Source: Phycisphaerae bacterium (GTDB lineage: Bacteria; Planctomycetota; Phycisphaerae; JAAYCJ01). Taken from it: DNA of 38,136 nucleotides. The notes under the pieces were generated by a model, which was given only the letters and a program-made list of their open reading frames with translations, had not been told where the DNA came from and ran no database searches. The stretch spans positions 1 to 38,136 of the forward strand of contig JAAYCJ010000278.1 in assembly GCA_012729815.1 (NCBI GenBank), written 5' to 3'. Position numbers and translations under genes: made by a program. This document shows, one piece after another, positions 6,868-38,136 of the stretch. Within the stretch, counting starts at the first letter, position 1. Each line of letters opens with the position of its first letter.

Positions 6868-8367
6868 CTACGGTTTGCGGGTCACCCGCGGATACTTGGC
6901 CTTCGCCTCGGGCTCGACGATCTTCTCGAACTTGACCTTGAATTCGAGCCAGTCGCCGAAGTCGTAGACGTACTTGATCGTATCCGCCGGCTCGATGGCC
7001 AGTTCGGCTATCTTCAGGTTCGCTCCCGGTCCGCCGCCCAGCGGGTCGATGTGCCCGTAGCCGCGGCTCTTTCGCGTGAAGCCTTCGTAGAATTCGCTGA
7101 GGTGATCGGAAGCATCCAGCCGCATCGTCTCGCGGATCGCCAGGTCGAGCTCGGCCAATTCGTTGCCGCCCAAAACCTCGATACGGCACCAGCGTTTGCC
7201 CTGCCAGACCTTGAACACGAACACCTGGTTCATGCGGGAGCGGGCTTGCCGCTTGCTCAGCAGCGGAGGCGCCTCGGGCTCCAGCATATTGGCCAGGGTC
7301 TCGGCCATCTCACCGAGGGTAGCGTCAAGTTCGTCGGCGTCCGCTTCCTCCTCAGGAGACTCGCAGGCCTCCATCAACCAGTCGTCGTCCTCGTCCAGAA
7401 CCGGCTCCTTCAGTTCGTGCAGGCCGGGCCAAAACTTCGGGACCACGCGTTCGACGGCTGCGGCCCGTATCGCCCCGTCCTCGACGTCCCGCATCAGTTC
7501 CGCCACGACAAACCATCCCGGTTTGAGCAGCCCGGCCAGCGTGGGCGGGACCCAGATCGGAAAGACGGCGCCGGCCTCCGCGCTGAGGCCTTCGAGAAAG
7601 ACCGTCGGACCGTCCATCTTTCGGACCGTAAAGTAAGACTCCTCCACGACTTCCTCGAAGTCGTCCCCGTCCCCCTCGTGTTCATCCGCCTCCTCATCCT
7701 CGTAGAGAAGGTCGTCGTCGGCTTCCTCTTCCTCGAACTCCTCAGCCAGCAGGTCCTCGGCATCGATCACCGTGCCGTCCTCGCGGTGGACCCGCAGGTC
7801 GATCATCGCCTGATCATCCTCCTCGACCGGCTCGAGTTCCGCAGCCTCATCCCAAGCCGCGAGTTCCTCTTCCGCCGCCCGGCGGATCAGGTCGCGCTGC
7901 CTGTCCTCAAGGAAAGACTTCTTGAGCACCGTATCGAGGATGCCCAGATCCAGCAGGGAAGGCAGTTCGTAGCCGGCCAGAGACCAGAAACTCAGGAGGC
8001 ACGCCGCATCGTAGGCCTGCTGGAACTCCGGCAGGATCCGGTCGATCGCGGCCAGGTACGCTTCCTGTTGGGACTCGGTCCAAAGCCCCCGGCCGCAAAG
8101 CCACGCGCCGAATTCGCGCAGCACGGGATCGACCCTCGCCGCCTGGGCAGGCAGCAGCACTTCGTTTCTCGGGAAGTGTCCGCCCAGCAGGTCATCGACC
8201 CTCTGGGCCAGGACCGACCACGGGTCGGGCGTCAGGCGGCCCTCAGCCCGCTCGGCCCACAGGAACCGGTAGACGCCGTGAACGATCGCCTCGGCGACCT
8301 CGCGTTCGGAGCGTTTGCCCTTGCGTTCCGTCAGAAACTCAGAGCAGATCGCTTTGATCTTGTCCAT
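6868..8367 (-). CDS. pRiA4b ORF-3-like C-terminal domain with long acidic N-terminal region
   Basis: The last 125 or so residues of this 499-residue protein match the plasmid pRiA4b ORF-3-like domain: QVFVFKVWQGKRWCRIEV at the start, a paired-helix segment ending LSEFYEGF, and the typical YVYDFGDWLEFKVKFEKI near the end. The domain is common in mobile-element passenger genes and in stand-alone chromosomal genes, and its function is not established. Residues 1-170 are helical (SEC-C/UPF-like in appearance, but no motif is certain). Residues about 175-260 are very acidic, with runs of E and D, and a further acidic stretch lies near 330-355. GGAGG on the minus strand precedes the ATG. No transposase is nearby, so a mobile origin is not supported here. 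Confidence 0.65.
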   Translation of the reverse strand: MDKIKAICSEFLTERKGKRSEREVAEAIVHGVYRFLWAERAEGRLTPDPWSVLAQRVDDLLGGHFPRNEVLLPAQAARVDPVLREFGAWLCGRGLWTESQQEAYLAAIDRILPEFQQAYDAACLLSFWSLAGYELPSLLDLGILDTVLKKSFLEDRQRDLIRRAAEEELAAWDEAAELEPVEEDDQAMIDLRVHREDGTVIDAEDLLAEEFEEEEADDDLLYEDEEADEHEGDGDDFEEVVEESYFTVRKMDGPTVFLEGLSAEAGAVFPIWVPPTLAGLLKPGWFVVAELMRDVEDGAIRAAAVERVVPKFWPGLHELKEPVLDEDDDWLMEACESPEEEADADELDATLGEMAETLANMLEPEAPPLLSKRQARSRMNQVFVFKVWQGKRWCRIEVLGGNELAELDLAIRETMRLDASDHLSEFYEGFTRKSRGYGHIDPLGGGPGANLKIAELAIEPADTIKYVYDFGDWLEFKVKFEKIVEPEAKAKYPRVTRKP

Positions 8368-8494
8368 CAGCCACCTCCGCCGGTTGCCACATAGCCGCAG
8401 TTCATTGGAAATCCCTCACCCACCAAGTCATAATATGGCCTTGGCGGGCGGGCGTCAACCGCCGTTGTTTGGAGTGCAAGCAAGAGCTGTGGAG

Positions 8495-9385
8495 ATGGAG
8501 AGTCAACCGCAAACAGGATCGACCGCGCCTCGACGCCGCTCCCGCGCAGCGGGCCTGGGCCGGCTGGCCCTGCTGACCGCCCTGGCGGTGGCGATGGCGG
8601 CGCCGTTCCTGTGGATGGTGATGACCTCGCTGAAGCCCCTTTCGGAGGTCGAGCGAGGGAGTTTCGCCCCGCAGAGCTGGCAGTGGGAAAACTACGCGGT
8701 CGTACTGGGATTGCAGCCGCCGCGGACCGGCGCGGGACGGGTCCTGGACCTGGCGTTCGGCAAATGGTACTTCAACAGCCTGCTGGTGGCCGGCTGGGTC
8801 ACGTTTCTGCAACTGCTGACCAGTTCGATGGCCGGCTACGCCTTCAGCCGCCTGCGGTGGCGGGGACGAGACGCGGTATTCGCCCTCTATATCGCCACCA
8901 TGATGATTCCTGGAGTGGTGCTGATCGTCCCCAACTACTTCCTGATGGTCAAGCTGCACCTGGTCAACACCTACCTGGGTCTGATCCTGCCCGCGTCGTT
9001 TGGAGCGTTCGGCACGTTCCTGATGCGTCAGTACATGCTGTCGCTGCCCCGGAGCCTGGATGAGGCGGCGGCGCTGGACGGGGCGTCGAAGTGGCACGTG
9101 TTCGTCGACGTGATCCTGCCCCAGTGCGGGCCCGCGCTGATCACGCTGGCCATTTTCATCTTTCTGGGCAACTATGCCTCGTTCTTCTGGCCACTGATTA
9201 TGATTAAGGATTCGTGGCTCCAGACTCTCCCGATCGGCATGCTGTATTTCGAGGAGCTTTACGGACGGCAGACCAACCTTTTGATGGCCGCTTCGATGCT
9301 CAACGTCGTGCCCCCGATCGTGGTCTTTATTGCCTTGCAGAAGTTTTTGGTCCGTGGTATACAGTTGGGCGCTTTTAGAGGCTGA
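8495..9385 (+). CDS. ABC sugar-transporter permease, MalG type (orphan)
   Basis: This 296-residue inner-membrane protein is a carbohydrate ABC permease of the MalG/CUT1 kind. It has a first membrane helix at about 25-45 ending MVMTSLKPLSEVE (typical of MalG-like subunits), five further helices, and the cytoplasmic EAA loop (EAAALDGASKWHVFVDVILP), the contact site for the ATPase. It ends KFLVRGIQLGAFRG, close to the usual VQGLTAGAVKG of the family. Normally a MalF partner, a solute-binding protein and often an ATPase are adjacent; none is in the window. The start is uncertain: ATG 8495 gives the usual length, ATG 8435 would add 20 residues. A strong terminator follows at once. Confidence 0.85.
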   Translation: MESQPQTGSTAPRRRSRAAGLGRLALLTALAVAMAAPFLWMVMTSLKPLSEVERGSFAPQSWQWENYAVVLGLQPPRTGAGRVLDLAFGKWYFNSLLVAGWVTFLQLLTSSMAGYAFSRLRWRGRDAVFALYIATMMIPGVVLIVPNYFLMVKLHLVNTYLGLILPASFGAFGTFLMRQYMLSLPRSLDEAAALDGASKWHVFVDVILPQCGPALITLAIFIFLGNYASFFWPLIMIKDSWLQTLPIGMLYFEELYGRQTNLLMAASMLNVVPPIVVFIALQKFLVRGIQLGAFRG

Positions 9386-35560: not shown

Positions 35561-36256
35561 CTACCTGTCCATCGTCGCCAAATAGATGGTCACGCGGCGG
35601 TTCCTGGCCTTGCCCTCGGGTGTGCGGTTCTCGGCGATCGGCTGGGTTTGCCCCACACCCCTGGTGGTCATGCGACCCGCGTCAATCCCGCCGCCGCGAA
35701 GCACCTCAGCCACCGCCTCGGCGCGGGCCTCGCTGAGCCCCTGATTGTCGGCGGACTTGCCAAGCTGCCGCAGATTGGCGATGGTGGCCGACTTTGCGAC
35801 CCGATCGGTGTCTGTGTGGCCTACGATCGTCAGGGCCCGATCCCTCACCTGATCGTTGTTAAGTATCTCGGCAAGCTTCTCGAGGGCGGCCCTGGCCCGC
35901 GGCTTGACGACGGTGGAACCCGAGTCGAAGGTGGTGTCGGACCGGAACTGGAACATGCCCTTATCCCGGTCGAATTCGAAGAGATTCGGGTACCTCTGGT
36001 CGAGATCTTCCACGGCCGCGACCACCGCTGGCGGAACCGGCGGCGGTTCGGGCGCCGGGGTGACCACAGGCTCGGGCTCAACCACGGGAGCCGGGGCGGG
36101 AGTCGGGGTCGGTCTGGGCGGCGCTGTGACCGGCTCCACCATCACCGTTTCCGGAAAGGGCTTGGGCCTCGGCCGGCAGCACGCGCAGCCAGTAAGCCCC
36201 CCGCAGACCAGCAGAACCGTCAGCACTACCGTCACAACTTCCCTAATCCGGTACAT
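35561..36256 (-). CDS. OmpA-family peptidoglycan-binding lipoprotein
   Basis: The 231-residue protein starts with a type II signal: hydrophobic stretch VVTVVLTVLLVCGG and lipobox L-T-G-C24. A proline-rich spacer (about 32-80, with PTPTPAPAP and EPPPVPP) is followed by an OmpA/MotB C-terminal domain (about 105-231): TFDSGSTVVKP, IVGHTDTDR (Asp of the peptidoglycan site), NQGLSEARAEAVAEVL (Arg) and the RRVTIYL ending. It should be anchored in the outer membrane and tie it to the wall, as Pal does. ATG 36256 is chosen because AAGGAG lies six bases before it; the frame from 36280 is less likely. Single gene. Confidence 0.92.
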   Translation of the reverse strand: MYRIREVVTVVLTVLLVCGGLTGCACCRPRPKPFPETVMVEPVTAPPRPTPTPAPAPVVEPEPVVTPAPEPPPVPPAVVAAVEDLDQRYPNLFEFDRDKGMFQFRSDTTFDSGSTVVKPRARAALEKLAEILNNDQVRDRALTIVGHTDTDRVAKSATIANLRQLGKSADNQGLSEARAEAVAEVLRGGGIDAGRMTTRGVGQTQPIAENRTPEGKARNRRVTIYLATMDR

Positions 36257-36583
36257 CACCATCTCCTTTGCTCGATCCAAGGGTCAGAGGCCGAACGCAA
36301 AGCCATCTGCGAAACCGCCGGCCGCTTCTCGCCCAGCCCACTATACCCCATACATGGAATACCAGCGGACGCCCCACGGGGCTTCCACCAATAATATCTA
36401 TCATTAGTTTGCCGGCCGAAACGGGAAAAGCAAGCGCATTTCTCCTCAACGACCCCGATTCCGCCGGGAGAGCGGGGGCGAGGCCGGCCCTGTCGCAGCC
36501 CGGTTCTGAACACCGCCTTGACCCGGGTTGCGAATTCGGCAACAATGGAGCACCGCTTGGGTGAGCGCGGAAGGGAGGCACTG
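36257..36583. other. 327-base divergent intergenic region
   Basis: The region separates the OmpA-like and radical SAM genes, which diverge. On the plus strand TTGACC (36518-36523) with a 17-base spacer and AACAAT (36541-36546) is a possible promoter for the radical SAM gene. On the minus strand TATAGT (36345-36340) could be a -10 for the lipoprotein gene without a clear -35. No gene or RNA family was seen. Confidence 0.35.
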
Positions 36584-38136
36584 ATGACGGTCAACTTAAC
36601 GGCAGTATGTGGGCACTGCCGTCAGCGTGTGGCGGCGAGGCACGAAGTCCGCGACGGCAAAGTGTTCCTGGTCAAGCAGTGCCCGCGCTGCGGCGGGAGC
36701 GAGGCCCTGGTGAGCACGGACGCCGCGGCCTGGCAGCACAAGCGCGACATCTGGGGCTATGACCCGACCGAGCCGACCGGCTGCAGCCTGCACTGCGACA
36801 CCTGTCGGATCGACCATACGCCGACGATTGTCTTTGTCGAAGTGACAAATCGCTGCAACATGAGCTGTCCGATCTGCATCGCGACCGTTCAGAGCGTCGG
36901 GTTCGACTATCATCCGCCCCTGGAATACTTCGCGAAGCTGTTCGTTCAGTTGGGCCGTCTGAAGCCTAAGCCGTTCGTCGAGCTGTATGGCGGCGAGCCG
37001 ACCCTGCGGGAGGACCTGGTGGAGATCGTGCGTCTGGCACGCCGCCAGGGCCTTCGTCCCCGGGTGGTGACCAACGCCATCCGCCTCGCCGACGAAGACT
37101 ACTGCCGCAGCTTGTGCGAGGCGAAGGTGCCCCTGCGGATATCCTACGACGGGCCCGATCCGGAGACGTACCAGCGGCTGCGAGGCGACCCGCACGTGGG
37201 CGAACTGAAACGGCGGGCACTGGCAAACCTCCGCAAGTACAACCCGCGAAAACACGCGATGCTCTGCTGCCTCGGATTGAAGGTTAACGACAAGCACGTC
37301 GGCGACATCCTCGCCACGTGTCACGAATACCGCGACGTCATCGAACAGGTGGGCTTCATCCCTCTCAAGGAGGACTGGCAGGGCGACGGCGTTCAGCCGC
37401 CCCACCATACCACGCAGGAAGACGCCGAGCGGGCGATCCGCGAGGGTGTTGTGGACGGCCGGGTGGATTTCATTCCCGCCGGTTTCGTCCACTGGCTTGC
37501 CCCGTCGAGGCGGTTTTTCACGGAGAATCCGCGGTCCAAGAACTTCATGTTCAGCGGCTCTCATCCCAACTGCGAGTCGGTCACCTTCCTCGTCTCCGAC
37601 GGCACGAACTACCGCAGCATCAACCACTACCTTAAGATGCCCCTGGACCGCCTCGCCGAAGAGGTGTTTCGCCGGGCAAGGGTCCTCAACGACCGGCTCG
37701 CCCGCCTGGACCCGCACAAGTTCCTTCAACGATGGCGCGGACGATGGCTGGTCGCCAGAACGTTCGTTCCCCTGATGTGCCGGGCGGCGGACCTGCGCGC
37801 CGTATTTAGGGGGCATCCGTTCCGCGCCGCGGCGAGAATCCTCGCCGGCGCGGTGCGTGGCGAACGGATTTGGGATGCCTTGCGCCGCGTGACCGGACTG
37901 CCAAGTCTCCTGCGGGTCGGGACCTTGCCGTTCGAGGAGTATCTCACCGTGGAATCCCAGCGGCTGGCCAAGTGCAGAGGCGTTTTCGCGTATGAGGACG
38001 CTCGCGACGGCTCGTTGCAGTCCATCCCCGTCTGCACCTGGTTTCTCTACCGCAAGGAGGTTCTCCGAACCATCAGCGAGAAGTACGGCGTGGCTCGATC
38101 GACTCGCGAAACCAGTCCGAGCCCGGCGGCGCCGTC
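36584..38136 (+). CDS. radical SAM protein of the Tes/MJ0619 (tetraether lipid synthase-like) family, 3' end cut by window
   Basis: The frame from ATG 36584 (GGGAGG at 36573-36578 ahead) stays open for 517 codons to the window end. The radical SAM motif is C91-N-M-S-C95-P-I-C98 in EVTNRCNMSCPICIA, followed by VELYGGEPTLREDL (the GGE motif) and RVVTNAIRLA. Before it are a four-cysteine rubredoxin or zinc-ribbon pair (C9-x2-C12, C33-x2-C36) and a second C67-x3-C71-x2-C74. This order of cysteine sets is that of the MJ0619/Tes group, which includes archaeal tetraether synthase, an sp3-carbon coupling enzyme with several Fe-S clusters. The C-terminal half (after about 330) is divergent and helical. 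In a bacterium a lipid-chain or methylation role can be proposed, not proven. Partial gene. Confidence 0.8.
   Translation, partial: MTVNLTAVCGHCRQRVAARHEVRDGKVFLVKQCPRCGGSEALVSTDAAAWQHKRDIWGYDPTEPTGCSLHCDTCRIDHTPTIVFVEVTNRCNMSCPICIATVQSVGFDYHPPLEYFAKLFVQLGRLKPKPFVELYGGEPTLREDLVEIVRLARRQGLRPRVVTNAIRLADEDYCRSLCEAKVPLRISYDGPDPETYQRLRGDPHVGELKRRALANLRKYNPRKHAMLCCLGLKVNDKHVGDILATCHEYRDVIEQVGFIPLKEDWQGDGVQPPHHTTQEDAERAIREGVVDGRVDFIPAGFVHWLAPSRRFFTENPRSKNFMFSGSHPNCESVTFLVSDGTNYRSINHYLKMPLDRLAEEVFRRARVLNDRLARLDPHKFLQRWRGRWLVARTFVPLMCRAADLRAVFRGHPFRAAARILAGAVRGERIWDALRRVTGLPSLLRVGTLPFEEYLTVESQRLAKCRGVFAYEDARDGSLQSIPVCTWFLYRKEVLRTISEKYGVARSTRETSPSPAAP

Follow-up and report, generated by a model that had tools for sequence, protein, structure and literature searches.

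A bacterial radical SAM family related to tetraether lipid synthase, with a possible role on lipids of the cell envelope

The last gene of this contig raises the question of whether the organism carries a bacterial tetraether lipid synthase (Tes) or a relative with a different job. The window analysed here is the entire contig C278, a stretch of 38136 bases from a metagenome-type assembly of 367 contigs, and it ends inside a radical SAM gene whose product is nearly complete at 517 codons (Table 1). The start codon at 36584 was judged reasonable and the reading frame real. Alignments of relatives reach residues 506-517 of the query and their conserved part stops earlier, so the missing tail should be short and non-conserved. 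The intergenic region shared with the divergent OmpA-family lipoprotein gene holds one sigma-70-like match at 36518-36546 on the forward strand, a candidate promoter element by consensus match only. The protein and its relatives are called family A here. Compared with the other copies of its class, the one in the window shows 42-51% identity, so among the sequences compared it stands without a close relative.

Table 1. Positions of the features discussed, in the window or, where a locus or contig is named, elsewhere
Feature	Position	Strand	Remarks
OmpA-family lipoprotein gene, divergent	35561..36280	-	PF00691, 73.5 bits; lipobox LTGC
Intergenic region common to the OmpA lipoprotein and family A genes	36281..36583	.	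303 bases
Family A radical SAM gene	36584..38134	+	517 codons; open at contig end, stop codon outside the assembly
Zinc-ribbon/rubredoxin-type domain, C9-x2-C12 and C33-x2-C36	36599..36715	+	PF23545
N-terminal auxiliary [Fe4S4] motif C67-x3-C71-x2-C74, then H78	36782..36805	+	Aligned with MJ0619 C73, C77, C80
Radical SAM core with C91-x3-C95-x2-C98	36836..37315	+	PF04055
C330 (HPNCES motif), first putative C-terminal cluster ligand	37571..37573	+	50/50 family A rows; aligned with MJ0619 C338
Helical cap, residues 354-437	37643..37894	+	AlphaFold2 model and structural alignment to 7TOL/7TOM; putative role
C464 to C484, remaining two putative C-terminal cluster ligands	37973..38035	+	50/50 family A rows
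Tes-type gene, contig C23	L053:5356-7278		Overlaps second radical SAM gene at 7271-8848
Second Tes-type gene, contig C229	L054:10149-11813		517 bits; 41% identity to MJ0619
Natural fusion of family A and SufS-like desulfurase	L062:1-3000 (same gene as L219:6282-9365)	- (L062)	
T2 genes (second Tes-like radical SAM gene)	L080:2267-3784 and L206:10259-11713		Omnitrophota and Verrucomicrobiota

The domains and cysteines of the family A protein predict all four metal sites of tetraether synthase, with ligand roles assigned by alignment. The zinc ribbon (Zn_ribbon_HMPTM) scored 38.9 bits in hmmscan against a cut-off of 27, and 44.6 bits in the genome scan, while the Radical_SAM domain scored 63.9 bits against 29.5. 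With both Pfam domains above their gathering scores, the protein falls in the HMPTM zinc-ribbon superfamily. A sequence-only reading of this DNA had described the cysteine motifs of the ribbon, the N-terminal cluster and the radical SAM core, and all are present as it described them. They are invariant in the 20-row alignment A1, as are C330, C464, and C484, which that reading had left out. In the larger set of 50 family A sequences used for the tree, C9, C12, C33, C67, C74, C91, C95, C98, C330, C464, and C484 are found in every row and C71 in 49. The assignment of the MJ0619 cysteines to the N-terminal cluster is taken from the account of that enzyme in PMC9433317. His78 lies one place later than the Tes histidine, in a column that varies within family A. 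C464 and C484 align with C455 and C470 of MJ0619, which together with C338 are, judged by position, the cysteines of the C-terminal [Fe4S4] cluster. In Tes this cluster is described as carrying a substrate-sulfur (carbon-sulfur) intermediate (PMC9433317).

The predicted fold is that of tetraether synthase over its full length. An AlphaFold2 model of the protein built from 40 sequences has a pLDDT of 90.2 and a pTM of 0.90. Its top Foldseek matches are the Tes structures 7TOL and 7TOM (TM 0.75/0.78), and alignment to 7TOL with VIA-align gives a Z of 42.6 over 437 residues with an rmsd of 2.9 A. The next structural entry after Tes in VIA-align is MoaA, with a Z of 19.6, and the RiPP maturases SuiB and SkfB are far below tetraether synthase. 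By sequence, 7TOL is also the best solved relative (phmmer E 1.8e-33, residues 6-299), and the A1 profile matches it over its full length with 207 bits. Tes binds lipids beneath a helical cap, according to the structural account in PMC9433317. Native mass spectrometry of purified MJ0619 has also revealed bound lipid. The cap over the lipid pockets is present in the family A model as the helices of residues 354-437, which in the model would lie where Tes has its second lipid pocket. Amphipathic character of the cap helices was considered as evidence of lipid binding and was rejected, because a helix outside the cap (278-288) scored equally high. The hydrophobic moment of helix 380-401 is at the level of chance, and the cap helices are inseparable from ordinary helices of the same protein.

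Despite the shared fold, the score, the tree, and the replaced residues together indicate that the family A protein is not Tes. The window's protein scored 149.4 bits on the NCBIfam Tes model NF045702, well below the cut-off of 450. The sequence-only reading had proposed a phylogeny with archaeal Tes as a check, and this placed the protein in a bacterial clade apart from MJ0619. The tree is a quick IQ-TREE run with a midpoint root and 111 rows, thinned by hand from 161 among the archaeal and planctomycete Tes-clade entries, with seven partial, duplicate, or fragment rows of family A and T2 dropped. The 50 family A rows form one clade with an SH-aLRT of 100, and the branches separating it from the MJ0619 clade have values of 99-100. 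The opposite clade has 57 rows, comprising MJ0619, archaeal Tes, Tes-type proteins of Chloroflexota and planctomycetes, and a few short proteins of Bacillota and Thermoplasmata. Four rows of a second bacterial radical SAM group, T2, lie on the family A side. A row from the window's class is placed beside a named Phycisphaerae row, and the host is taken to be a planctomycete, probably one of the Phycisphaerae. By this tree, family A is a separate, coherent bacterial branch of the Tes superfamily. Membership in the MJ0619/Tes group therefore holds for the superfamily, the whole predicted fold, and the metal-site cysteines, but not for identity as Tes. These three shared features made lipid-tail chemistry a fair first guess.

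The two clades differ at four positions, given here in MJ0619 numbering. Position 36 is Cys in 49 of the 50 family A rows, but His in 16/16 planctomycete and 33/34 archaeal and Chloroflexota rows of the Tes clade. At the place of Gln268, family A has Ile, Met, or Leu in 49/50, versus Gln in 16/16 and 34/34. Met439 is kept in 16/16 planctomycete and 33/34 archaeal and Chloroflexota rows, and its place is taken by Leu (Leu448) in 49 of the family A rows and in all four T2 proteins. Tyr459 is kept in 16/16 and 32/34, and is replaced by Phe (Phe468) in 46 of 50. The T2 proteins have His at the last of these places in 4/4, and three of the four keep His36. In the description of Tes in PMC9433317, Met439 is a labile ligand, Tyr459 belongs to the active site, and both are strictly conserved in archaea. 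The M439A and Y459F/L variants of MJ0619 stay active (PMC9433317), so the changes in family A point to another task rather than to an inactive enzyme. With Gln268, Met439, and Tyr459 gone, the substrate could be a changed, non-lipid one. The product of family A is probably not an archaeal-type tetraether lipid.

The better Tes-type candidates of this genome lie on other contigs. A genome search found two further full-length homologues, on contigs C23 and C229, with about 30% identity to the window's protein. They scored 508.6 and 517.1 bits on NF045702, above the cut-off, and lie inside the Tes clade with about 41% identity to MJ0619. Both retain His36, Gln268, Met439, and Tyr459. On these grounds the real Tes-type candidates of the genome are the C23 and C229 genes, not the gene in the window, and the question of tail-coupled lipids in this organism starts with them. 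Tes and GrsA homologues have already been reported in Phycisphaerae, from Black Sea genomes (PMC11868695). The C23 protein has an extra, sub-threshold zinc ribbon ahead of the first, and the radical SAM gene that overlaps the C23 gene resembles NirJ2/AhbD-type SPASM enzymes, below the cut-off. Similar tandems are found in L055 and L058.

Family A is patchily spread over several bacterial phyla. With presence defined as a match at E < 1e-60, it was found in 18 of 397 genomes of the window's class and in 8 of 392 genomes drawn from its phylum. Elsewhere it was found in 7/40 genomes from the phylum of the Sumerlaeota record, 4/193 from that of the Omnitrophota record, and 2/240 from that of the Verrucomicrobiia record. 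Seven of the first 101 relatives have it, counting strong matches, and it is absent from the two same-family genomes that were searched. Overall the family occurs in Planctomycetota, Sumerlaeota, Omnitrophota, Verrucomicrobiota, Lentisphaerota, and one deltaproteobacterial genome. Some organisms have multiple copies, with 5-6 in two Sumerlaeota genomes and 7 matches in one planctomycete. Among open-licence PMC papers, none was found that describes family A as a group.

The neighbours of family A differ between lineages. No conserved neighbour was seen in the first six relatives, and a pattern emerged only with more loci. The full set has 65 loci, 64 of them distinct (L081 is the same as L226). 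Outside the window's class there are 53 loci (52 distinct) with 57 family A genes, and the class set has 20, namely 19 of the class and L078. Outside the class, a SufS-like cysteine desulfurase is adjacent or fused in 10 of the 53 loci. In nine it lies on the same strand within 160 bases, and in one (L219) it is fused to the C-terminus of the family A protein. The desulfurase has its best NCBIfam score with the SufS family, below the model cut-off, and keeps a lysine and a cysteine at what we take to be the places of the SufS active site. This pairing is confined to some clades. A desulfurase of this type was not found in the window's genome at E 1e-60, and the best match in the 101 relatives, at 270 bits, was read as an ordinary SufS-like protein.

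An orphan lipoprotein of about 190 residues (LP) is found near family A in 13 of the 53 loci outside the class, often directly upstream. It has no Pfam match, and in NCBIfam only a weak match to a Leptospira lipoprotein model (36.1 bits against 150). Its alignment, A2, covers L082, L083, L193, L195, L196, L200, L202, L213, L214, L219, L220, and L222. LP was considered as a universal partner and rejected, since the window's genome has none and the 101 relatives have a single weak match (22 bits over 32 residues, in a genome that is not among the family A carriers of that set). Because both LP and the family A-type desulfurase are absent in the window's class, family A has no universal partner. 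T2 lies directly downstream of family A in 4 of the 53 loci (L080, L206, L207, and L208). In L213 a lipoprotein gene is flanked by two family A genes. An open frame of 1241 residues in L118 ends in a Tes-like protein and may be a fusion.

Within the window's class the recurrent neighbours are other lipoproteins. A homologue of the OmpA lipoprotein is near family A in 6 of the 65 loci and in 6 of the 20 of the class set, the window included. A thioredoxin-fold lipoprotein is directly upstream in 6/65 as well, and in 6/20 of the class set, and in three loci (L268-L270) a rhodanese lipoprotein precedes it. Overall, 16 of 109 immediate neighbours are lipoprotein-like, compared to 10 of 269 genes at least three genes away (odds ratio 4.5, Fisher p 4e-4), in a count made with a crude gene caller and a lipobox regex on loci that are non-independent and include the same-genus pairs L268 with L270 and L262 with L263. 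The OmpA, thioredoxin, rhodanese, and orphan lipoproteins are mutually unrelated, and the only evident common feature is the lipobox. Genes of lipid A synthesis are also found nearby. In L080, family A is followed by T2 and then by an LpxL-like acyltransferase, and the frames overlap. In L262 and L263 the genes for OmpH/Skp, LpxD, LpxC-FabZ, and LpxA follow family A, and L051 has an LpxL-like gene on the opposite strand, two genes upstream. The three lipid A settings were picked out post hoc, and for many of the 65 loci no neighbour is informative. Taken from gene context, the link of family A to the cell envelope is treated here as real but not proven.

The fold and the gene neighbourhoods are consistent with a Tes-like enzyme of the bacterial envelope. 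The main reading, given a probability of about 0.4, is that family A carries out Tes-like radical chemistry on a hydrophobic chain, likely an acyl chain of a cell-envelope lipid and not an archaeal-type diether. SAM would be cleaved to give a 5'-deoxyadenosyl radical. The helical cap would hold the chain while this radical removes a hydrogen from one of its unactivated carbons. As in Tes, a C-terminal cluster sulfide would then trap the resulting carbon radical. The trapped chain could be joined to a second chain through a carbon-carbon bond or released with other chemistry. By comparison with Tes, the 5'-deoxyadenosyl radical would be expected to abstract hydrogen twice. The candidate substrates are phospholipid, lipid A, or the lipid used for lipoprotein anchors.

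A sulfur-containing product is a further possibility, and a speculative one. With limiting SAM, Tes is reported to form a lipid that contains sulfur (PMC9433317). Together with the desulfurase fusion, this makes a carbon-sulfur outcome worth testing. Family A may conceivably halt the Tes reaction half way, so that it thiolates or sulfur-cross-links the acyl chain of an envelope lipid or lipoprotein anchor and consumes its C-terminal cluster, which the adjacent or fused SufS-like desulfurase would rebuild. This version is a long shot. If it were true, the Tes fold would in family A serve an enzyme that inserts sulfur into lipids, and a new kind of envelope lipid would result. The desulfurase may simply serve cluster assembly.

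The lipoproteins next to family A allow other explanations. Other radical SAM enzymes pair with target proteins, and family A could similarly be a maturase that modifies the chain of the neighbouring lipoprotein before export. The enrichment of adjacent lipoprotein genes, which are often in the same operon and sometimes overlap family A, points in this direction, and NCBIfam has a model whose name offers a precedent (TIGR04133, 'rSAM_w_lipo'), to which the match is weak at 40.6 bits against 425. We nevertheless consider a maturase unlikely, since the partner proteins share so little, the protein has no peptide-recognition domain by Pfam, and its nearest fold is a lipid enzyme rather than SuiB or SkfB. 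It is also conceivable that family A is a general envelope or redox enzyme, with the desulfurase, thioredoxin, and rhodanese building or protecting Fe-S sites and the lipoproteins as bystanders. A protein with three [Fe4S4] clusters needs sulfur, which fits the presence of the desulfurase. However, the thioredoxin and rhodanese neighbours carry lipoboxes and so should be outside the cytoplasm, and the desulfurase is paired with family A only in some clades, making this explanation decidedly unlikely.

The remaining alternatives are those that the sequence-only reading had set against each other. A functional bacterial Tes, joining fatty-acyl or alkyl tails to give membrane-spanning lipids as that reading proposed, would agree with the superfamily, the fold, and the cysteine sets, and the active MJ0619 variants indicate that loss of the Met and Tyr is not fatal (PMC9433317). 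This is very unlikely for the window's gene, however, because it falls below the model cut-off and outside the MJ0619 clade, its family has replaced His36, Gln268, Met439, and Tyr459 in 46-50 of 50 rows, and the same genome has two better candidates. The opposite idea, a small-molecule enzyme such as a methylase of pterin or another cofactor, is suggested by the name of the Pfam ribbon, HMPTM. Placement in a branch of pterin or small-molecule methylases, which the sequence-only reading gave as its refuting outcome, is not supported either. It is the least probable of the explanations considered, as the account of MJ0619 in PMC9433317 rejects the pterin assignment on structural grounds and no cofactor gene adjoins family A in the annotated neighbourhoods, in which part of the neighbours were scanned. 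Tes-like chemistry on an envelope lipid is thus the reading preferred here.

Separating family A from Tes has practical consequences. Tes homologues are counted in bacterial genomes in order to guess the producers of branched tetraethers, lipids that are used in the study of past climate. Family A shares the cysteine layout of Tes. With a Methanothermococcus Tes as stand-in, criteria like those applied to the Black Sea (30% identity, E < 1e-30) admitted 10 of its 50 members, so counts of tetraether producers can be inflated. For enzymology, family A offers a Tes-like scaffold with changed surroundings of the C-terminal cluster and, in some phyla, a desulfurase of its own. The combination of a changed cluster and a partner desulfurase means that the role of cluster sulfur becomes testable.

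Family A can be compared with several known radical SAM systems. Mss, the bacterial membrane-spanning lipid synthase, probably lacks the zinc ribbon, an indirect conclusion from the genome of Thermotoga maritima, which we take to be an Mss organism and which has no match to PF23545. An AlphaFold similarity of Mss to Tes has been reported (PMC13274423). Gms, the GMGT synthase, carries out radical SAM carbon-carbon coupling of lipid chains. Its published description gives it a SPASM domain and a helical domain at the N-terminus (PMC11186832), and Pfam finds neither in family A. The TrsS radical SAM (seleno)protein (NF045646) shares the N-terminal half of the window's protein, with 132.8 bits over residues 6-261, but the cut-off is 490 and the C-terminal part has no match. 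Tes/GDGT-MAS (MJ0619, 7TOL, 7TOM, NF045702) shares the full-length fold and the cysteines of the zinc ribbon and the N-terminal, SAM, and C-terminal clusters. In the window's protein, by contrast, His36 is replaced by Cys, Gln268 by Ile, Met439 by Leu, and Tyr459 by Phe, and Arg275 is absent. The planctomycete Tes-clade proteins, including those of C23 and C229, have the same superfamily and cysteine order as the window's protein, but Arg275 and the other four residues are kept in 16/16. Positions 36, 268, 439, and 459 of MJ0619 thus provide a simple filter between family A and Tes.
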